Part shown: in pieces, positions 25,958 through 45,944 of the stretch
Position numbering within the stretch: position 1 is the first letter of the stretch
Layout of the letters: the number at the start of each line of letters is the position of its first letter
Source of the DNA: Desulforudis sp.
GTDB taxonomy: Bacteria; Bacillota; Desulfotomaculia; Desulfotomaculales; Desulforudaceae
Direction of reading: 5' to 3'
NCBI GenBank assembly: GCA_003604975.1
Contig: QZIR01000005.1
Span: 1 to 45,944 of the forward strand
Length of the DNA: 45,944 bases
Translations under genes and position numbers: made by a program
Notes under the pieces: model-generated
Told to the model about the DNA's origin: nothing
Seen by the model: only the letters and a program-made list of their open reading frames with translations
The model's database searches: none

Positions 25958-26026
25958 AGGGATTATATGATAGCAGCCCCGGCTTCCGGGTCGGGTAAGG
26001 ATCGAAAAAACAGGAGGCTACCGATT

Positions 26027-34776: not shown

Positions 34777-34959
34777 GTGGCGGAAGTCAAAGTTGGTAAG
34801 CACGAAACGCTGGACAGCGCCTTGCGTCGCTTTAAGCGCACCTGCCAGAAGGCAGGCGTTTTTGCCGAAGCCAGGAAGCACGAACACTATGAAAAACCAA
34901 GCGTGAAGCGTAAGAAGAAGTCGGAAGCAGCGCGAAAGAGAAAGACCAAGAAGTTCTAA
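34777..34959 (+). CDS. rpsU: 30S ribosomal protein S21
   Basis: A 60-residue basic protein with the S21 pattern ([25 protein letters not shown], then [11 protein letters not shown]). S21 helps mRNA binding near the anti-Shine-Dalgarno. The start is GTG 34777, 7 bases after GAGGGAGGG. Confidence 0.95.
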
Positions 34960-35034: not shown

Positions 35035-35064
35035 TTGATTTGCTCTGCAGATGACCACTATGGT
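35035..35064 (+). promoter_or_regulatory. candidate promoter of the orphan crRNA-like gene
   Basis: TTGATT and TATGGT are 18 bases apart. Initiation near 35071 would give about 30 bases of leader before the orphan repeat. Confidence 0.45.
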
Positions 35065-35100: not shown

Positions 35101-35131
35101 CGTCCGGTTTGAACCGGACGAGGATTGAAAC
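35101..35131 (+). repeat. lone diverged CRISPR repeat
   Basis: CGTCCGGT, loop TTGA, ACCGGACG, then AGGATTGAAAC. The 3' 11 bases equal the array repeat exactly. The stem sequence differs from the array (which pairs CGCCCGGCC with GGTCGGGTG) yet is fully complementary, so it has changed by paired substitutions, evidence of selection on the hairpin. Confidence 0.85.
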
Positions 35132-35155
35132 ATAGTTAAGGTTCTTAAAGGGAAG

Positions 35156-35190
35156 GATGACCCCTGTGACAAACAGGGGTCATCTGCTTT
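35156..35190 (+). terminator. terminator of the orphan crRNA-like gene
   Basis: GATGACCCCTGT and ACAGGGGTCATC form a perfect 12-bp stem with a GACAA loop, followed by TGCTTTTGG. It separates the small RNA from the cas promoter. Confidence 0.75.
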
Positions 35191-35215
35191 TGGTACAATA
35201 CTTCCAAGGCAAGTA

Positions 35216-35244
35216 TTGACAAACACCAACACTAGACTTAAGAT
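35216..35244 (+). promoter_or_regulatory. sigma-A promoter of the cas operon
   Basis: TTGACA and TAAGAT are separated by exactly 17 bases, giving a start near 35251 and a leader of about 35 nt before cas3. Confidence 0.8.
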
Positions 35245-35245
35245 A

Positions 35246-35265
35246 CTTGTAAGCACCTTTACTAT
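35246..35265 (-). promoter_or_regulatory. predicted target site of the orphan crRNA-like RNA
   Basis: Read on the minus strand from 35265 the site begins ATAGTAAAGGTGCTTA, against spacer ATAGTTAAGGTTCTTA. It starts right after the -10 box and covers the expected transcription start, so bound Cascade should block initiation. The flanking bases are TCA (35268-35266), with the usual type I-C motif TTC shifted one base further out. Confidence 0.6.
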
Positions 35266-35285
35266 TGAAGAAGAGGTGTTTCCTA

Positions 35286-37442
35286 ATGCATATTGCGCAT
35301 TCAGGCAACCCAGATGGACGGGAACATGGACTGGTTGAACACCTAGAGGGTGTTGCCCGCCTATCAGCAGTTTTTGGAGATAAGATCGGTGCCAGGGAAC
35401 TTGCCTACTGGGCCGGGCGTCTACATGATAGCGGCAAGTCCGGTAAATTATTCCAAGAGTATATAAGAAATCCAGATCCCCAACGAAGAGTAGACCATTC
35501 TAGTGCAGGAGCTGTCTTGGTGAGTCCCATTTGGCTGGGATTGGCTTTCCTGGTTGCCGGACATCACGGCGGTTTAGCCGACATGACCGATCTTAAGCAC
35601 CGGCTAGAAACAAAGGGCGCTGATCCCAGGATCCGAGAGAGCATCGCAGCTGCTGAAGAGCTATTGCCCGAGCTAAAGACAATCCCCGCTCTAGCCAGTA
35701 CATTACCCACGCATTTAAGAAGTGTACCAGAGACCGAACTCTTCATCCGGCTCCTCTTTTCGGCCTTGGTGGACGCCGACTTCCTCGATACCGAAGCGTA
35801 CTTCAATAATGAGTTATCAGAACTCCGGGGCGCATCCTCAAGCCTCTCGGATCTTTGGCATCGACTGCAGGTAAATCACGAGTCCCTGACTGCCAATGCC
35901 TCCCACAGCTTACTCAATTCCCTCCGGCAAGAGATATTCGACGCCTGTTGCACTGCGGCTGACCAACCGCCTGGTGTGTTCCGCCTGACCGTACCAACCG
36001 GAGGCGGTAAAACCCGTTCGGGGATGGCTTTTGCCCTGCGGCATGCGCTTCAACACAGACTGGACAGGGTTATTGTGGCTATTCCATACACTTCGATTAT
36101 CGAGCAGAATGCGGACGAGTATCGGAAGATTTTCGGCCAGGAGGCAGTTCTTGAACACCACAGTGCCGTTGAATCGTTGGACGACGGCGACGAAGTGTCG
36201 TCCGACAGAGTGAAGATGCGTCTGGCCTCCGAGAACTGGGATGCCCCAATTGTGGTGACCACCACGGTACAGCTTTTTGAGAGCTTCTTTGCCAATCGTC
36301 CTTCCCGATGCCGCAAACTCCACAACATCGTCCGGAGTGTAATCATCCTGGATGAGGTGCAAACCCTCCCCATCGAGCTACTCACCCCCATCCTGGATGT
36401 CCTTCGTGAACTAACCACTCATTACGGTGTCTCGGTCGTCCTTTGTACAGCTACCCAGCCAGCTCTGGATGACAGCCCATACCTGCGGGGTTTTCGTAAT
36501 GTACGGGAAATCGTACCTAATCCGGAGAGATACTTTGCCCTACTTAAACGGGTTAACTACGAGATTCCCGTCAGCACTGAAAAATGGTCGTGGAGCCGGG
36601 TGGCATCGGTGATGCGTGAGAACCGGCAGTGCCTTACCGTTGTAAACACAAAAAAGGATGCTCTGGCCTTGATGAGTGTCCTGGAAGACCCTGATGCGTT
36701 GCACTTGTCGACCCTCCTTTGCGGTGCCCACAGGCGGGAAGTGATCGCCGAAGTAAAGCGAAGGCTGTCCTTGGGTGAGCCCTGCCGGTTGGTGTCCACG
36801 CAAGTGATTGAGGCCGGTGTAGACCTGGATTTCCCAATGGTACTTAGGACAGTTGGTCCGTTGGATCGTATAGTGCAGGCAGCAGGACGCTGTAACCGTG
36901 AGGGCCAGCTTACGGATGACCTTGGCCAGCCGGCGATGGGCAGAGTGATTGTGTTCTGCCCAGAGGAAGGTGGTATGCCTCCTGGTGGTTATAAGAGCGC
37001 AACCAGTCAGGCCGTCAGCTTGTTAAGTCGGGAAGGTCTCGATTTGCACGACCCGGGTTTATACACAAGGTACTTTCAGATGCTCTATCAGGTTGTTGAG
37101 ACTGGAGGCCGGGATGTCCAGTCCGCACGGGAAGCCCTACAGTTCGCCCAGGTTGCTGAACGGTTCCGCATGATCAAGGACAATACTGTTCCAGTTATCG
37201 TGCGCTATGCAGCCGAAGTGGACGGGCTTGTTGCCACTGTCCGGGCTGGTGGGGTCTCTCGGGGAATCGTACGGCGGCTACAACCCTACTTAGTCAACAT
37301 CTATGAACACCAGCTTCTCCGATTGAGAGACCAGGGGTTGATTGAGGAAATTGCTCCCGGGCTATATGAGTGGCTGGGACTTTACGATCCGGTATTGGGT
37401 ATAAGTGAACGGGCACGGGATCCCGAATCACTTGTTTTTTAA
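35286..37442 (+). CDS. cas3: Cas3 nuclease-helicase, type I-C
   Basis: A 718-residue fused HD nuclease and superfamily 2 helicase that degrades DNA marked by Cascade. The HD domain shows His19, His47-Asp48 (GRLHDSGK), His71 and His93-His94 (AGHHGG). The helicase has Walker A PTGGGKT (about 237-243), motif II LDEVQ (355-359), motif V STQVIEAGVDLDFP and motif VI QAAGRCNREG. The start is ATG 35286, 7 bases after AGAGGTG; a TTG at 35265 lies upstream without a Shine-Dalgarno. It is first in the operon. Confidence 0.95.
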   Translation: MHIAHSGNPDGREHGLVEHLEGVARLSAVFGDKIGARELAYWAGRLHDSGKSGKLFQEYIRNPDPQRRVDHSSAGAVLVSPIWLGLAFLVAGHHGGLADMTDLKHRLETKGADPRIRESIAAAEELLPELKTIPALASTLPTHLRSVPETELFIRLLFSALVDADFLDTEAYFNNELSELRGASSSLSDLWHRLQVNHESLTANASHSLLNSLRQEIFDACCTAADQPPGVFRLTVPTGGGKTRSGMAFALRHALQHRLDRVIVAIPYTSIIEQNADEYRKIFGQEAVLEHHSAVESLDDGDEVSSDRVKMRLASENWDAPIVVTTTVQLFESFFANRPSRCRKLHNIVRSVIILDEVQTLPIELLTPILDVLRELTTHYGVSVVLCTATQPALDDSPYLRGFRNVREIVPNPERYFALLKRVNYEIPVSTEKWSWSRVASVMRENRQCLTVVNTKKDALALMSVLEDPDALHLSTLLCGAHRREVIAEVKRRLSLGEPCRLVSTQVIEAGVDLDFPMVLRTVGPLDRIVQAAGRCNREGQLTDDLGQPAMGRVIVFCPEEGGMPPGGYKSATSQAVSLLSREGLDLHDPGLYTRYFQMLYQVVETGGRDVQSAREALQFAQVAERFRMIKDNTVPVIVRYAAEVDGLVATVRAGGVSRGIVRRLQPYLVNIYEHQLLRLRDQGLIEEIAPGLYEWLGLYDPVLGISERARDPESLVF

Positions 37443-37469
37443 GCTGTAAATAGAAAGGAGGTGTTCTTA

Positions 37470-38144
37470 TTGAAGAACTCGATACCATTGGAAATCAAGG
37501 TGTGGGGTGATTTTGCCTGTTTTACCCGGCCCGAAATGAAGGCGGAGCGCGTTACGTACCCGGTAATGACGCCATCCGCCGCCCGTGGCGTGCTTGAGGC
37601 GATATTCTGGCGTCCGGAGTTCTCTTGGCTAATCCGTGAGATCTGGGTATTGTCAGAGATTCGCCACATCTCCTGGCTGCGCAACGAGGTAAACAGTACC
37701 GCGGTGGTATCAACTGCCCGCAAATGGGCAACGAGCGGCGGTGGCTACTACGCCGAGGAAGATCGTGCCCAGCGCCACACGTTGGCTCTCCGGGATGTGG
37801 CCTACCTGATCAAGGCGGATGTCCACTTGCAGCAGCACGCCGATGCCCATGTTGCCAAGTACCGCGATATGTTTCGGAGACGTGTGCAGCGCGGCCAGTG
37901 TCATCACCAGCCGTATCTCGGCTGCCGTGAGTTCACTGGATTCTTCTCACCTCCTTCAGGGGATGAAAGGCCGATCACTCACACTGATGACCTGGGCCGG
38001 ATTCTTTTTGACCTGGAGTTTGCCCCAGATCGCTCGGGTAGTGCCGTACCCCGGTTTTTCAATGCGCGCCTGGAAAACGGCAAACTCAGAGTTCCCCCGG
38101 AACTCTATGAAAGGAGGGGTGCATCATCTTACTGCAACGATTAA
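37470..38144 (+). CDS. cas5c: Cas5c (Cas5d) pre-crRNA endoribonuclease and Cascade subunit
   Basis: A 224-residue Cas5 of type I-C, which replaces Cas6: it cuts the repeat at the base of the hairpin and keeps the 5' handle. The N terminus is KNSIPLEIKVWGDFACFTRPEMKAERVTYPVMTPSAARGVLEAIFWRPEF, typical of Cas5d, and HQPYLGCREFTGFF is the conserved central segment. TTG 37470 is chosen because AAAGGAGG is 8 bases upstream; GTG 37461 overlaps that element. It overlaps the start of cas8c. Confidence 0.92.
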   Translation: MKNSIPLEIKVWGDFACFTRPEMKAERVTYPVMTPSAARGVLEAIFWRPEFSWLIREIWVLSEIRHISWLRNEVNSTAVVSTARKWATSGGGYYAEEDRAQRHTLALRDVAYLIKADVHLQQHADAHVAKYRDMFRRRVQRGQCHHQPYLGCREFTGFFSPPSGDERPITHTDDLGRILFDLEFAPDRSGSAVPRFFNARLENGKLRVPPELYERRGASSYCND

Positions 38145-39790
38145 ATGAGTATGCCGAGCGGCTGGACGTACCTCCTGCAATGTACAAGTCCACAGCTGTA
38201 CCCTGGGTTATTGATCTGGATGCTACTGGGCAGCTTCTTGGTTTGGTTCGTACAACCGGAGAGGCTAAACGAGACCAGGGCAAGCTACTGACCGTGCCCT
38301 ATCCCGGTACTCGTACCGCGGGTATCAAAGCAAACTTGCTCGTTGACAAGGCCGAATACGTATTAGGTCTGGAACGTGACAACAAGTCTGTCAGCCGCCA
38401 CGAGGCTTTTTTGGGGCTAGTGCGGGAATGTGCCGAATCAACAGGGGAACGGGATGTCCAGGCCGTGCTCCACTTCCTTGAAACCCTGGACCTTACTACC
38501 GTTGATCTTCCTGCTGAGCTTACACCCGATCTCTGGATCACTTTTCGCGTGGCTGGGAGCTTCCCGACTGACCTACCTTCGGTTCAGGACTATTGGGCTT
38601 CACGGTTTAAAGAGGCTGGTGCTGCTAAGGAGCAGGACAAGATGAACTGCATCGTCTGTGGTGCAGGCTGCGTTCCAGTCAGTCCACATCCCGGCAACAT
38701 CAAGGGAATTCCCAATGGGCAGACATCGGGTATGGCTCTGATCTCGGCCAACAGCAAAGCCTTTGAGTCGTACGGGCTCGAACGCTCCGTAATTGCCCCC
38801 ACCTGTGGCACCTGTGCCGAAAAATACGTCATCGCTGCCAACACCCTTATCAAAGACGAGCACACCCACTTACGAGTGGGGCCTCTGATTTACCTCTTCT
38901 GGACGAGGGAAGACACAGGCTTTTCGGTTACCCTGCTATCGAAACCGGAGCCGGATGACGTAAAGGCCCTGATTGAATCCGCATGGAAGGGGCGTGAATA
39001 CTCGGCCGTTGACGAGACCGCCTTCTATGCTACTGCTTTCTCGGCTAGCGGGGCGCGGGTTGCTGTACGTGACTGGCTGGAGACCACCTTGGGCAGTGTT
39101 CGAAAGAACCTGGCTCGGTGGTTTGTGCTGCAACAGATCGTTGACTCATGGGGAGGAGAGGGGCATCCCTACGGGCTCTACCCGCTCTGTGCCTCTCTGT
39201 ATCGGGACGCCAATCGTGACATGGTCCCCAATGTTCCCAAAACTGTACTCCGGGCGGCGTTGCACGGTGGACCACTTCCTATGTGGTTACTCTATCAGGC
39301 CGTACGCCGCAATCGGGCAGAACAGGGAGTAACCCGACCCAGAATAGCCCTCATCAAGATGGTTTTACTCTCCGGAGTGGAGGGGAAGGAGGATACGATG
39401 AAGGAACTGGAAATCGAGAACACAAACCCCGCATACCTCTGCGGCCGTCTATTCGCGGAATTGGAAGCGGTTCAGAGGGCAGCCATGCCAAACGTGAACA
39501 CCACTATTGCGGATCGGTTTTTTGGTACCGCTTCTTCCGCACCGGCTTCCGTATTTGGTCGCCTGTTGCGCGGGGCACAGAACCACCTGGGCAAGCTACG
39601 CCGGGAAAGGCCTGGAACCTACCACGCTTTGCAGCAACGCCTTGAAGAGATTCAGTCAAAATTAAGTGTGTTCCCCACAGCCCTACCTCTAAAGGATCAA
39701 GGGATGTTTGCCCTCGGCTACTATCACCAGAGGGCCTCAGACCGGGCTGGCGCGAAGGCAGCGAAAGACAAGACACAGGTACAGGAATAA
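38126..39790 (+). CDS. cas8c: Cas8c (Csd1), large Cascade subunit, with unusual start
   Basis: The large subunit that recognises the PAM in type I-C Cascade, about 554 residues. CIVCGAG and CGTCAEKY carry paired cysteines, likely a zinc site. The first ATG in frame is 38180, but the codons before it read LLQRLNEYAERLDVPPA, which matches the expected Cas8c N terminus and follows AAGGAGG (38111-38117). There is no ATG, GTG or TTG there: ATC at 38126 has ideal spacing (8 bases). A GTG at 38119 would be in frame if one base were removed. So either a rare ATC start or a one-base insertion. The 3' part also encodes Cas11c. Confidence 0.9.
   Translation: MLLQRLNEYAERLDVPPAMYKSTAVPWVIDLDATGQLLGLVRTTGEAKRDQGKLLTVPYPGTRTAGIKANLLVDKAEYVLGLERDNKSVSRHEAFLGLVRECAESTGERDVQAVLHFLETLDLTTVDLPAELTPDLWITFRVAGSFPTDLPSVQDYWASRFKEAGAAKEQDKMNCIVCGAGCVPVSPHPGNIKGIPNGQTSGMALISANSKAFESYGLERSVIAPTCGTCAEKYVIAANTLIKDEHTHLRVGPLIYLFWTREDTGFSVTLLSKPEPDDVKALIESAWKGREYSAVDETAFYATAFSASGARVAVRDWLETTLGSVRKNLARWFVLQQIVDSWGGEGHPYGLYPLCASLYRDANRDMVPNVPKTVLRAALHGGPLPMWLLYQAVRRNRAEQGVTRPRIALIKMVLLSGVEGKEDTMKELEIENTNPAYLCGRLFAELEAVQRAAMPNVNTTIADRFFGTASSAPASVFGRLLRGAQNHLGKLRRERPGTYHALQQRLEEIQSKLSVFPTALPLKDQGMFALGYYHQRASDRAGAKAAKDKTQVQE
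39398..39790 (+). CDS. cas11c: Cas11c, small Cascade subunit from an internal start in cas8c
   Basis: Type I-C systems make their small subunit by internal initiation within cas8c. Here ATG 39398 is in frame with cas8c and follows a perfect AAGGAGG at 5-base spacing. It would give a 130-residue, mainly helical protein starting MKELEIENTNPAYLCGRLFAELEAVQRAA, the N terminus expected for Cas11c. Several copies would line the belly of Cascade and hold the displaced strand. Confidence 0.85.
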   Translation: MKELEIENTNPAYLCGRLFAELEAVQRAAMPNVNTTIADRFFGTASSAPASVFGRLLRGAQNHLGKLRRERPGTYHALQQRLEEIQSKLSVFPTALPLKDQGMFALGYYHQRASDRAGAKAAKDKTQVQE

Positions 39791-39820
39791 TTCCCATAAT
39801 GATTGAGGAGGATTTTGAAA

Positions 39821-40744
39821 ATGAGTAACAGTGTTATTGTCGATCCCAACCGGCGTCACGACTTTGTACTGCTGTTTGATGTGATGGATGGCAACCCCAA
39901 CGGCGACCCCGACGCAGGTAACCTTCCTCGGGTGGATCCCGAGACGATGCATGGTCTGGTTACGGATGTGTGTCTGAAGCGCAAGGTGCGCAACTACGTA
40001 GAGGCCGTGCGTGGGGCTGATGAGCGGTACAAAATATACGTACAGAACCGTGGCATCTTGGCTAACCAGCAGAAACGGGCGTATCAGGCCTTAGGTGTGG
40101 AACCGGGAAAGAGCGCGAACGCTTTGGCGCGCAAATGGATGTGTGACAACTTCTTTGACGTACGGGTGTTTGGTGCCGTCATGACGGTCGGTCGGACCAA
40201 GGATGAAAAGGACGGCAAGCAGCTACACTGGAATTGTGGACAAGTACGGGGACCGATCCAAATGACCTTCGCCCGCTCGATCGATCAGGTCGTGCCGCTA
40301 GACCTTTCAATAACCAGGGTGGCCCTGACCAACCCGGATGATACCGGTCGCGGCGAGGTGGATGACCAGCAAGCTGCCTCCGGCCAGATGGGACGGAAAT
40401 CGATTATTCCCTATGGTCTTTACCGTGGGTACGGCTTTGTCAGCTCTGCCCTGGGCGAGGATACTGGTCTCACAGAAGAAGACCTCGGTGTCTTTTGGCA
40501 AGCACTCCAGCAGATGTGGGATCTGGATCGGTCAGCGAGCCGTGGATTCATGGCGTGTCGAGGATTGTACGTGTTCTCCCATGAGAATGGTTTGGGGAAT
40601 GCGCCAGCCCATACGCTCTTAGATCGAATCCAACCCAGGATGAAAGATGACGTACAGACCCCGCGTCGGTTCGACGACTACACGATAGCGGTAGACGACG
40701 CCGATTTGCCCGAAGGCGTATCCCTTACAAGGCTTGTAGGATAG
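39821..40744 (+). CDS. cas7c: Cas7c (Csd2), backbone Cascade subunit
   Basis: A 307-residue Csd2/Cas7 that polymerises along the crRNA. The opening RHDFVLLFDVMDGNPNGDPDAGNLPRVDPETMHGLVTDVCLKRKVRNYV is the family signature; QMTFARSIDQVVPLDLSITRVAL and DDQQAASGQMGRKSIIPYGLYRGYGFVSS follow. Its thumb flips out every sixth base of the guide-target duplex, relevant to the orphan RNA. The start is ATG 39821 after GAGGAGG; an upstream TTG in frame is less likely. Confidence 0.94.
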   Translation: MSNSVIVDPNRRHDFVLLFDVMDGNPNGDPDAGNLPRVDPETMHGLVTDVCLKRKVRNYVEAVRGADERYKIYVQNRGILANQQKRAYQALGVEPGKSANALARKWMCDNFFDVRVFGAVMTVGRTKDEKDGKQLHWNCGQVRGPIQMTFARSIDQVVPLDLSITRVALTNPDDTGRGEVDDQQAASGQMGRKSIIPYGLYRGYGFVSSALGEDTGLTEEDLGVFWQALQQMWDLDRSASRGFMACRGLYVFSHENGLGNAPAHTLLDRIQPRMKDDVQTPRRFDDYTIAVDDADLPEGVSLTRLVG

Positions 40745-40749
40745 GCCTG

Positions 40750-41424
40750 GTGGCTGCCGCAGGATTGGGAGACTGGTCAGATACCGAGCTGGTGGCTATC
40801 TCTGCCATCCAGCACTACAGTTATTGCCCCCGGCAGTGTGCCCTGATCCACGTGGAACAGACCTTTGAGGAGAACCTTTACACCATGCGAGGTAGGAGGG
40901 TCCACGAAAGGGTTGACGAGCCCGATACGACCATCGAGGGTGGAGTGCGCGTAGAGCGTGCTCTACCCCTGTGGTCGGAAAAGTTGGGGTTGATCGGCAA
41001 GGCGGATGTGGTTGAGTTTCACGACGAGGTGCCGTACCCCGTTGAGTATAAACACGGATCTAAGCGGCCACGTTCCCACGACGACCTGCAGCTTTGCGCC
41101 CAGGCGATCTGTCTTGAAGAAATGACCGGGGAGCCCGTGCCCAGGGGTGCTGTGTTTCATCATTCATCTAGGCGCCGACGTGAAGTGGTGTTCACGGACG
41201 AACTACGCCGTGAAGTGGCCCGCATTACCGAGGCCATCCGGGGAATGCTTCAAGTCCACACCTTGCCGCCTCCGGCAAATGACGAGCGATGCCGTCATTG
41301 TTCCCTCGCTGATTCATGTATGCCCCAGGTGGTGGGTGAAAAGGGGCGATTGAAGAACCTCAGCCAGGAAGTCCTGTCAGGAGTGCAACTGATTGGGGGT
41401 GTACGGGATCCGGACACTACTTAA
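40750..41424 (+). CDS. cas4: Cas4, PAM-selecting exonuclease of adaptation
   Basis: A 224-residue Cas4 that trims prespacers and checks their PAM with Cas1-Cas2. Iron-sulfur cysteines are visible: one in YCPRQCALIH (about 28-32) and three in CRHCSLADSCMP near the C terminus. The nuclease core has GKADVVEFHDEVPYPVEYKHG (Asp and the ExK motif) and the QL.AQA helix (DLQLCAQAICLEE). GTG 40750 starts 5 bases after the cas7c stop. Its end overlaps cas1 by 32 bases. Confidence 0.93.
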   Translation: MAAAGLGDWSDTELVAISAIQHYSYCPRQCALIHVEQTFEENLYTMRGRRVHERVDEPDTTIEGGVRVERALPLWSEKLGLIGKADVVEFHDEVPYPVEYKHGSKRPRSHDDLQLCAQAICLEEMTGEPVPRGAVFHHSSRRRREVVFTDELRREVARITEAIRGMLQVHTLPPPANDERCRHCSLADSCMPQVVGEKGRLKNLSQEVLSGVQLIGGVRDPDTT

Positions 41425-42439
41425 CACTCTTTATGTCACTACCGAGCATTCCTATTTGCGTCTCGATCACGAAACGGTAAGGATCGATGTTGAGGGTGTG
41501 AACCGTTTCAGTATACCGTTACATCACCTGGGTGCCGTAGTGTGTTTTGGCAATGTTCTCATAAGCCCGGCACTAATGGCTAGATGTGCAGAGGATGGTC
41601 GGACAATGGTGCTCCTGGGACGGGATGGTCGTTTCAAGGCCAGGCTCGAAGGGCCTGTATCGGGCAATGTAATGCTTCGTCGGGCTCAGCACGAAGCATT
41701 GGCCAATCCCGTGACCACAGTGGGCATTGCACGCAGCATTGTAGCGGGAAAGATCAGGAATACACGTACAGTCGTACTTAGGGCTGCCCGGGAGGCGGAA
41801 AACGAAGAAGATGAACAAAGCCTGAGAAACACGGCCAAAACTCTCTCCAACGCGGGCTCACGGTTAGCTTCTGCCGGCGACTTGGACGAAATTAGGGGCA
41901 TGGAGGGCGAATCAGCTCGATGCTATTTCGGTTCCTTTCAGTGTATGGTGCGCCAGAACCGTGAGCATTTCAAAATGGACGGTCGCAACCGTCGACCTCC
42001 TCGCGACCCTATAAACGCACTAATCTCATTCCTCTATACCTTGCTGTTAAACGATTGTGCGGGAGCACTGGAGGGTGTCGGACTGGATCCACAGGTTGGA
42101 TATCTACATTGCCTTAGGCCCGGTCGTCCTTCTCTCGCCCTGGACCTCATAGAGGAATTTCGTGCTGTTTTAGCGGACAGGCTGGCGTTGACATTGATTA
42201 ACCGCCGTCAGGTAACCGCAGGAGACTTCGTTATACGGCCGGGTGGCGCGGTGTTTCTTGGAGACGATGGCCGCAAAGAAGTACTGGTCGCTTATCAAAA
42301 GAGAAAGCAGGAGGAAATTGTTCATCCTCTCCTCGACCGCAAGGTTCCTTTCGGCCTGGTACCACACGTCCAGGCCAGGTTGCTCGCGCGATACCTGAGA
42401 AACGACGTCGAAACCTACGTTCCCTTTATCTATCGGTAG
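41393..42439 (+). CDS. cas1: Cas1 integrase, type I-C
   Basis: A 348-residue Cas1, the endonuclease that integrates new spacers. Counting from TTG 41393, the metal-binding residues are Glu171 (GMEGESARCYF), His239 (GYLHC) and Asp251 (LALDLIEEFR). The N-terminal beta domain opens LLNTLYVTTEHSYLRLDHETV as in type I-C enzymes. TTG 41393 follows CAGGAG at 9 bases; GTG 41399 is an alternative. Confidence 0.95.
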   Translation: MGVYGIRTLLNTLYVTTEHSYLRLDHETVRIDVEGVNRFSIPLHHLGAVVCFGNVLISPALMARCAEDGRTMVLLGRDGRFKARLEGPVSGNVMLRRAQHEALANPVTTVGIARSIVAGKIRNTRTVVLRAAREAENEEDEQSLRNTAKTLSNAGSRLASAGDLDEIRGMEGESARCYFGSFQCMVRQNREHFKMDGRNRRPPRDPINALISFLYTLLLNDCAGALEGVGLDPQVGYLHCLRPGRPSLALDLIEEFRAVLADRLALTLINRRQVTAGDFVIRPGGAVFLGDDGRKEVLVAYQKRKQEEIVHPLLDRKVPFGLVPHVQARLLARYLRNDVETYVPFIYR

Positions 42440-42453
42440 CAGGATGTGATGAC

Positions 42454-42747
42454 GTGCAGATACTTGTTTGCTATGATGTGGCCACGGACACTGCGGCGGG
42501 TCGCAAACGGTTGCGAAAAGTCGCTAGAGTCTGCGTTGACCACGGCCAGCGGGTACAAAAATCGGTGTTCGAAATCTCGGTGAATCAGGTTCAATATGAG
42601 CAGATGTTGCACCGTTTACTAGAATTCATTGATCAGGAGGAAGACAGTTTAAGGGTGTACCGCCTTCGTGAACCCAAGGAGCGGTATCTCAAAGAATACG
42701 GGGTTAATGTCTCTGTGGACTATGACCATGATCTACTAATGGCGTAG
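42454..42747 (+). CDS. cas2: Cas2, adaptation subunit, type I-C
   Basis: A 97-residue Cas2 with the ferredoxin-like fold: ILVCYDVAT with the conserved Asp8, then RVQKSVFEISV. It dimerises at the centre of the Cas1-Cas2 integrase. Start GTG 42454. It is the last cas gene, followed by the leader. Confidence 0.95.
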   Translation: MQILVCYDVATDTAAGRKRLRKVARVCVDHGQRVQKSVFEISVNQVQYEQMLHRLLEFIDQEEDSLRVYRLREPKERYLKEYGVNVSVDYDHDLLMA

Positions 42748-42921: not shown

Positions 42922-45900
42922 ATAGCGCCCGGCCTTCGGGTCGGGTGAGGATTGAAACCACTGTCCAACCATTAAAAATGAGGCAATATTTAAATAGCGC
43001 CCGGCCTTCGGGTCGGGTGAGGATTGAAACCGGTTATGAGGACCTGGCTGTTAAGGCCCAGGGCGATAGCGCCCGGCCTTCGGGTCGGGTGAGGATTGAA
43101 ACGGGTGGGCTTTTTCGGCTTTGGCGGTAAGAACAGATAGCGCCCGGCCTTCGGGTCGGGTGAGGATTGAAACCCTGATGAAGCCAGTCTTATGCGCCGG
43201 ATTAACCAAATAGCGCCCGGCCTTCGGGTCGGGTGAGGATTGAAACAAGGGAGTGCTTCAGCGGGGTCCGGGCGGAGAAGATAGCGCCCGGCCTTCGGGT
43301 CGGGTGAGGATTGAAACCAACAGGACGAGTGGAGCCGGGAAGACCAGAAGCATAGCGCCCGGCCTTCGGGTCGGGTGAGGATTGAAACCAAATTAATCCT
43401 TATTGGCGTTTCGACGGCAACCAATAGCGCCCGGCCTTCGGGTCGGGTGAGGATTGAAACTTCCAGCGCCTTTGTGGTGCCCCGGTGAGCGCTCATAGCG
43501 CCCGGCCTTCGGGTCGGGTGAGGATTGAAACTATAACCTGAATGTCAATCCGTGCCGCCCTGCTGATAGCGCCCGGCCTTCGGGTCGGGTGAGGATTGAA
43601 ACCCGGGCCCGCCGGCGGAATGGACTGCCGATCAGAATAGCGCCCGGCCTTCGGGTCGGGTGAGGATTGAAACATGGGTTGATTTCGTGGCAACAATATC
43701 TCAGCTGAATAGCGCCCGGCCTTCGGGTCGGGTGAGGATTGAAACAAATAACCGTCCACCTGGTCGCGCGTTTCAACGATAGCGCCCGGCCTTCGGGTCG
43801 GGTGAGGATTGAAACGATGCCTGGATCACGGCTGGAGACGAACGGGTGGCATAGCGCCCGGCCTTCGGGTCGGGTGAGGATTGAAACCCTGGCAATGCAA
43901 TACCGGTAACCGCGCTGACCCATAGCGCCCGGCCTTCGGGTCGGGTGAGGATTGAAACAAGGAAGGCCTGCTCCCCCAGTTTTTTCGTCCCGATAGCGCC
44001 CGGCCTTCGGGTCGGGTGAGGATTGAAACCTGGCCATGGCCGGCTATGAGGCAAGTGAAGTCAATAGCGCCCGGCCTTCGGGTCGGGTGAGGATTGAAAC
44101 GGAGACAAGATCGAGTCTGCCCGGGCTGCGGAGCATAGCGCCCGGCCTTCGGGTCGGGTGAGGATTGAAACTTCTGTCTGCGAATGCGGAAAGGGAGCGG
44201 ACGGCGATAGCGCCCGGCCTTCGGGTCGGGTGAGGATTGAAACCAGAGCGCTTATTCGCTGTATGGTTTTGCCGATAGCGCCCGGCCTTCGGGTCGGGTG
44301 AGGATTGAAACCTTCTTGGCCAGGGTATCAAGTGTCCGCTGCCTGATAGCGCCCGGCCTTCGGGTCGGGTGAGGATTGAAACAAGAGTGACGCCGGCTTC
44401 GAGATTCTTCCCCTCATAGCGCCCGGCCTTCGGGTCGGGTGAGGATTGAAACCTCAATCATCATGGCCCGGGCATAAGTGCTAATCACATAGCGCCCGGC
44501 CTTCGGGTCGGGTGAGGATTGAAACGGTGATGGCCTTTGCGTGATATTCATGGATTATCATAGCGCCCGGCCTTCGGGTCGGGTGAGGATTGAAACTGGA
44601 GGAACTGGCCAGGCTGCTGGGCCTGACTGGATAGCGCCCGGCCTTCGGGTCGGGTGAGGATTGAAACCGTGACCAGCTGGACGATGTCCGGAGCCGTCAG
44701 GAATAGCGCCCGGCCTTCGGGTCGGGTGAGGATTGAAACGTGTCACTCCATCGTTAATCTCTGCTCCGGCCACCATATAGCGCCCGGCCTTCGGGTCGGG
44801 TGAGGATTGAAACGAGCGCGGAGAGATTGACGCAGAGACGCTACAAATAGCGCCCGGCCTTCGGGTCGGGTGAGGATTGAAACATTATTCGAGCCGCCTG
44901 ATGGCGGTAGAGACCGCAATAGCGCCCGGCCTTCGGGTCGGGTGAGGATTGAAACTGGAGGATGTCGTCCCCGAGCTCGTCCGCTATGCTATAGCGCCCG
45001 GCCTTCGGGTCGGGTGAGGATTGAAACTTTGACAACTGAAGCTCGCAACCCTGCCGCCTCCATAGCGCCCGGCCTTCGGGTCGGGTGAGGATTGAAACCA
45101 TTATCGAGTGGGAGTAACAGCATAAAAGCCGAATAGCGCCCGGCCTTCGGGTCGGGTGAGGATTGAAACCCCAGTGGTACTTGATGTTCGTGGCTCCCAC
45201 CTCCATAGCGCCCGGCCTTCGGGTCGGGTGAGGATTGAAACGAGGACGCAATCGTAAAGGCGGCGAACCTCGGAGATAGCGCCCGGCCTTCGGGTCGGGT
45301 GAGGATTGAAACCCGGCATGAGGAGGTAAGCGGGAAGCTCTTTGAGCATAGCGCCCGGCCTTCGGGTCGGGTGAGGATTGAAACCATCGAAGGTTGCCCG
45401 TGTCGAGAAAACGCACCACATAGCGCCCGGCCTTCGGGTCGGGTGAGGATTGAAACAACCAGCCGCCGCCTATTATCTCGGTTACCCGCCCATAGCGCCC
45501 GGCCTTCGGGTCGGGTGAGGATTGAAACATATAAACCCGATCTTGATTTTACGATTGACGGCCATAGCGCCCGGCCTTCGGGTCGGGTGAGGATTGAAAC
45601 TCTTTCGGGTCATACTGCAGATCCTGTATACCCAATAGCGCCCGGCCTTCGGGTCGGGTGAGGATTGAAACATAGTGCAAATGGGGACCTGTTGCACGGC
45701 CTGTCGATAGCGCCCGGCCTTCGGGTCGGGTGAGGATTGAAACCACAAAGGAATAACCGCAGTGTTTATCCCTCCAATAGCGCCCGGCCTTCGGGTCGGG
45801 TGAGGATTGAAACCAGGGTGCCGTTGCGGTTTTCCTCGGCGACCGGAATAGCGCCCGGCCTTCGGGTCGGGTGAGGATTGAAACTATATTATCCGCTTCC

Positions 45901-45944
45901 CTCAATAATTCGGAGAGAATAGCGCCCGGCCTTCGGGTCGGGTG
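42922..45944 (+). CRISPR. type I-C CRISPR array, 42 full repeats plus one cut by the window edge
   Basis: The repeat is 37 bases; the first copy is 42922-42958 and the forty-third starts at 45919. Spacers are about 33-36 bases (the first two are both 35) and all look different. Every repeat I checked is identical. Each has a 9-bp stem, CGCCCGGCC with GGTCGGGTG (two G-U pairs), closed by a TTCG tetraloop, followed by the 11-base handle AGGATTGAAAC, consistent with Cas5c processing. Orientation follows the cas genes. No degenerate last repeat is seen, so the array continues past the window. Confidence 0.98.

Follow-up and report, generated by a model that had tools for sequence, protein, structure and literature searches.

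The analysed stretch, referred to below as the window, comprises 45,944 nt of contig QZIR01000005.1 from Desulforudis sp. It contains a type I-C CRISPR-Cas system with a complete operon (cas3-cas5c-cas8c-cas7-cas4-cas1-cas2) followed by an array. The features of this region are the following:

35036-35064, plus strand: possible weak promoter of the guide gene, TTGATT-17-TATGGT, 8/12 to consensus, assigned by eye
35101-35131, plus strand: orphan I-C repeat, consisting of a hairpin (35101-35120) and an 11-nt 5′ handle, AGGATTGAAAC (35121-35131)
35132-35147, plus strand: 16-nt guide segment matching the cas promoter at 14 positions, with mismatches at 6 and 12
35148-35154, plus strand: remaining guide before the terminator, without complementarity to the target
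35155-35192, plus strand: putative intrinsic terminator of the guide RNA, 13-bp stem and T-rich tail
35216-35244, plus strand: cas operon promoter, -35 box TTGACA (35216-35221), 17-nt spacer, -10 box TAAGAT (35239-35244), 10/12 to consensus
35250-35265, minus strand: target site, the minus strand being the guide-identical one
35266-35268, minus strand: PAM position, 5′-TCA-3′, with TTC one base further out
35286-37442, plus strand: cas3 (TIGR01587/TIGR01596, above cut-off)
37461-38144, plus strand: cas5c (TIGR01876)
38180-39790, plus strand: cas8c (TIGR01863)
39803-40744, plus strand: cas7c (TIGR02589)
40750-42747, plus strand: cas4, cas1c and cas2 (TIGR00372, TIGR03640, TIGR01573)
42922-45944, plus strand: CRISPR array with the 37-nt repeat ATAGCGCCCGGCCTTCGGGTCGGGTGAGGATTGAAAC and spacers mostly of 34-35 nt, extending past the window end

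Cas5c and Cas8c were identified in the I-C operon of the window, and no Cas6 gene was found there. In type I-C systems Cas5c doubles as the crRNA-processing nuclease.

A single ectopic repeat lies about 150 bases upstream of cas3. Its last 12 nt (GAGGATTGAAAC) are identical to those of the array repeat, and its stem differs from the array stem in sequence while retaining the pairing (8 bp, folding z of -3.4). An ectopic repeat with a crRNA handle near the cas genes, as expected of a CreR gene, is therefore present at 35101-35131. The sequence-only reading of this DNA had missed the end of the guide gene; a terminator scan (three found against 0.3 expected) adds the intrinsic terminator, placed there at 35155-35185, which would close the guide transcript. 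The promoter scan did not reveal a strong promoter ahead of the guide gene, and TTGATT-17-TATGGT scores below the threshold of that scan.

The window also contains a second, degenerate I-C repeat (25978-26008), which shares 26/31 positions with the array repeat, the next best segment of the window sharing 19/31. An apparent hrcA lies on one side of it and a TCP-1/cpn60-like chaperonin gene on the other, and the ribosome site of the chaperonin gene comes just after it. For the 16 nt following this repeat, one further match exists elsewhere in the genome, at C48:9323, and it leaves out positions 6 and 12.

The guide ATAGTTAAGGTTCTTA (35132-35147) and the minus-strand sequence ATAGTAAAGGTGCTTA (35265-35250) agree at 14 of 16 positions and differ only at 6 and 12, exactly as first read, in both coordinates and bases. 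The cas promoter with its -10 box, which had been placed ahead of the target, was also confirmed: the site starts six bases past the -10 box of the TTGACA-17-TAAGAT promoter, and the full 34-nt footprint (35232-35265) would take in this box and the predicted transcription start. Among 4000 dinucleotide shuffles of 35148-35300, a 14/16 match of any kind turned up in one, and agreement at all 14 positions other than 6 and 12 in none; the analytic expectation for the latter is 2.4e-6. In the whole 3.1-Mb genome the corresponding pattern ATAGTNAAGGTNCTTA occurs only in the guide and in the cas promoter, and no further sites were found there at 0-1 mismatch. A second copy of CGAGGATTGAAAC, at C16:20694, has apparent phage genes on the opposite strand and no evident hairpin, and was taken as a chance occurrence.

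A test for covariation of guide and target in homologous loci had been proposed earlier. Such covariation was found in Thermincola sp. (locus L002), the cas3 of which is 71% identical to that of the window. The layout is shared: the handle is identical, the hairpin is longer, and a guide, a terminator and a TTGACA promoter are likewise present. The Thermincola guide ATGATTGGTATATTAAC and its target ATGATAGGTGTCTTAAC are mismatched at positions 6, 10 and 12 (guide:target pattern |||||.|||.|.|||||.). Between the two loci, seven positions (3, 4, 7, 8, 9, 13 and 15) show concordant double changes of guide and target. Each guide fits its own promoter at 14/16 (window) or 13/16 (Thermincola) positions, against 9/16 and 10/16 on the promoter of the other. 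Guide and target have thus changed together between the window and Thermincola, as in the co-evolution ascribed to CreR RNAs.

To assess how widespread this arrangement is, loci with cas3 or Cas8c were taken from whole genomes, and the sequence surrounding the cas genes and lying upstream of them was read. The search rule accepted a non-array handle of the GGATTGAA type and sites within about 500 bases having one difference in the first 11 bases; guides swapped between loci served as the null. In the discovery set (133 loci, 494 guides), sites with the sole difference at position 6 (skip-6 sites) numbered 12 against 0.9 in the null, and those with the sole difference at any other position numbered 0-3 each. 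TTC adjoined 6/12 of these skip-6 sites (null 0.05). When the rule was applied afterwards to 61 further loci, 20 skip-6 sites were obtained against 1.0 in the null, with TTC at 16/20 (null 0.25).

Altogether, 31 pairs among the 194 sampled I-C loci were retained as strong candidates. In the pooled pairs, positions 1-5 match in 31/31, positions 7-11 in 28-31, positions 13-15 in 28 and position 16 in 25, while position 6 is matched in 3 and position 12 in 6, and positions 17-36 are near chance. The window, which matches at 14/16 and is unpaired at 6 and 12, thus shows the consensus pattern of the group, and the blindness of the pairing at every sixth base, noticed originally at one locus, recurs with both positions near chance. 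Positions 13-16, which played no part in selecting the later set, match there in 70/80 cells. A hairpin of at least 7 bp, mostly terminator-like, follows the guide in 27/31 pairs. It should be noted that the 31 pairs are not fully independent, several guides being related or AT-rich, and a few rows have near-identical guides or a common genus (L198/L199, L208/L215). The 20 later-set rows are TTC-flanked hits with a good handle, three of them not mismatched at 6 and two carrying a second mismatch. Loci L131/L132 and L141, where the seed fits and GTG/GTT stands at the PAM position, were left out of the 31. In the congeneric L131 (2369-2386) and L132 (2415-2432), the 1-5/7-11 match lies just 5′ of the cas3 start codon next to GTG/GTT, and the bases past 11 have diverged while this match has been kept.

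The element was absent at L006 (cas3 58% identical) and at the G001 locus of the same genus. In the plasmid cas3 regions of T. thermophilus HB27, N. vulgaris DP4, Z. mobilis, D. aetherius, T. saccharophilum, B. laterosporus and two Paenibacillus, no qualifying CreR was found. The guide element is consequently not universal in type I-C. On a Paenibacillus amylolyticus plasmid (L234, 4850-5430), an orphan repeat with a terminator-like hairpin lies antisense in a wide cas3-cas5 gap, and the rule finds no target for its guide. Orphan or two-repeat degenerate I-C elements occur between cas3 and cas5 in L007 and L009, and a repeat stands in the cas3 leader, near the start codon, in L007/L008; no promoter match was found for the elements of these three loci. 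In G001, a quite different I-C cas3 (38% identical) follows the same apparent rpsU and terminator (window 34780-34956, L022), which suggests that the spot after the apparent rpsU is a recurrent insertion site.

Across the surveyed loci the target sites lie mostly directly 5′ of cas3 or 5′ of cas5. Footprints overlap promoter-like sequence (at least 9/12) in 68% of cases, and control positions do so in 12% (p 6e-13). At the PAM position, most loci have TTC, the window has TCA, which the sequence-only reading had not remarked on, and Thermincola L002 has TTT. TTC is reported as the PAM of a type I-C system (PMC8406640). Either the lineage with TCA/TTT reads a different PAM, or a poor PAM belongs to the design; two spacer segments, searched against viral contigs in order to fix the PAM of the lineage, gave no exact match. 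In L090 (2326-2378) and L109 (2022-2095), the target apparently lies on the promoter of the guide gene itself, and these guides may repress themselves. The orphan I-C guide of L130 (1-560) is directed not at cas but at a promoter belonging to a small ORF nearby, with a skip-6 match and the PAM TTT; this locus could be a CreTA/CrePA-like module.

The precedent for interpreting these sites comes from type I-B. The CreA RNA pairs at positions 1-5 and 7-11, with 6 and 12 free and TTC as the PAM; mutating 6 or 12 is harmless, a change at any of the other ten positions abolishes function, and compensatory changes rescue it (PMC8501985). Repression by CreA requires the cascade genes and does not require cas1, cas2, cas3 or cas4 (PMC8501985). 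CreR RNAs autorepress cas genes in types I-B, I-E and V-A (PMC13131331). By the precedent of CreA and CreR, the RNA of the window is expected to bring I-C Cascade to the cas3 promoter, lowering expression of the operon.

The target strand also bears on whether the guide could work by ordinary antisense pairing with the cas3 mRNA leader. The guide had been read as complementary to this leader, which is true of the window (35250-35265) and does not hold generally: in 18/31 pairs the guide is the mRNA-sense sequence, so that antisense action on the mRNA is impossible there. Moreover, RNA-RNA pairing explains neither the free positions 6 and 12, nor the conserved crRNA handle, nor the adjoining TTC. 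The antisense model was rejected on the orientation of the 31 targets and is very unlikely to apply. A similarly small chance is given to the placing of Cascade at the cas promoter without repression, for example for adaptation priming or activation. The sense-identical guides of Bacilli, which land at the -35 box or just upstream of it, would suit such a role, but the experimentally studied CreA of type I-B and CreR of types I-B, I-E and V-A all repress.

That the element is an old-array leftover or a self-acquired spacer, matching the promoter by descent or chance, is less probable still. Arrays do give rise to orphan repeats, and the handle equals that of the array repeat. However, a spacer gained by acquisition should agree with its target for about 34 nt, with 6 and 12 among the matched positions, and the observed pairing ends at 16; chance is excluded by the shuffles and the genome scan, and guide and target changed together in Thermincola. 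Finally, a guide acting as antitoxin in a toxin module that depends on CRISPR, in place of a cas regulator, would share the pairing rule of CreA (PMC8501985) and has a possible parallel in the small-ORF promoter targeted in L130, but the toxin-gene promoter that is the target in CreTA has no counterpart in the window, where the sole genomic match is the cas3 promoter with cas3 directly following the site, and this explanation is hardly credible.

Judged from the sequences compared here, the lone repeat gene very probably makes a CreR-type guide RNA that sends I-C Cascade to its own cas promoter and represses it. Such Cascade-guided autorepression had been suggested for the window from the outset and gains support from the Thermincola covariation, the skip-6 excess in both sets, the promoter overlap and the I-B CreA precedent, which together point to repression. 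We propose the following scheme. The transcript of the CreR-type gene (35101-35192) would be a short RNA in which one repeat is followed by a guide of about 23 nt and then by a terminator. Cleavage by Cas5c at the repeat hairpin would leave the 11-nt handle, and Cas5c, Cas8c and Cas7 would assemble on the processed RNA. Guide nucleotides 1-5, 7-11 and 13-16 would then pair with the cas3 promoter over the transcription start, with positions 6 and 12 flipped out and not counted. The R-loop would halt at 16 nt, and Cascade would therefore block transcription instead of calling Cas3; presumably it is the 16-nt limit that keeps Cas3 out. When Cascade is abundant, the operon would be turned down, and when array crRNAs or anti-CRISPRs draw Cascade off, it would be released.

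A broader reading is offered only tentatively, at somewhat less than even confidence: I-C systems across the phylum may have a dedicated autorepressor RNA with tuned pairing, 14 pairs arranged as 5+5+4 in blocks of Cas7 size and ending at nucleotide 16, with position 6 mismatched beyond drift. The length would in that case be enough for stable binding of Cascade and short enough to avoid Cas3. Position 6 is matched in 3/31 pairs against about 8.4 expected (p ~0.02, a post hoc comparison), and active selection for a mismatch there is not claimed, since the later set matches at this position in 3/20.

If the proposed function is correct, RNA-guided cas autorepression extends to another common subtype, I-C. 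The search rule is simple and held in the later set. Which guide bases Cascade reads is recorded naturally in the sampled pairs: every sixth is free, and the pairing ends at 16. The pairs allow one to estimate how much pairing Cascade needs in vivo to bind without cleavage, which may be useful for I-C gene silencing, and the guide element suggests how I-C systems might sense anti-CRISPRs.

Among known systems, CreR of types I-B, I-E and V-A (PMC13131331, PMC12737573) is likewise a crRNA-like RNA encoded by an ectopic repeat next to cas, with a guide partly complementary to the cas promoter and autorepression proposed. The window differs in belonging to type I-C, in its single repeat closed by a terminator and in its 14/16 pairing as 5+5+4. 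CreA of the haloarchaeal I-B CreTA modules (PMC8501985, PMC9458426) has the same promoter pairing at 1-5 and 7-11 with 6 and 12 free, and it represses its own promoter with Cascade, a layout apparently repeated in L090 and L109. Unlike CreA, the element of the window is aimed at the cas promoter, is without a toxin RNA and continues its pairing through 13-16. In type II-A systems, Cas9 represses its own promoter through tracr-L, a short-matching guide; the effector, PAM and guide origin are different, and the likeness is one of analogy only. Cas9 autorepression is also mentioned in PMC13131331. No report of CreR in type I-C was found in a search that covered reviews, which give I-B, I-E, V-A or type I generally. 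The element of the window follows the CreA/CreR rule in type I-C, being of a known kind in an apparently new subtype.
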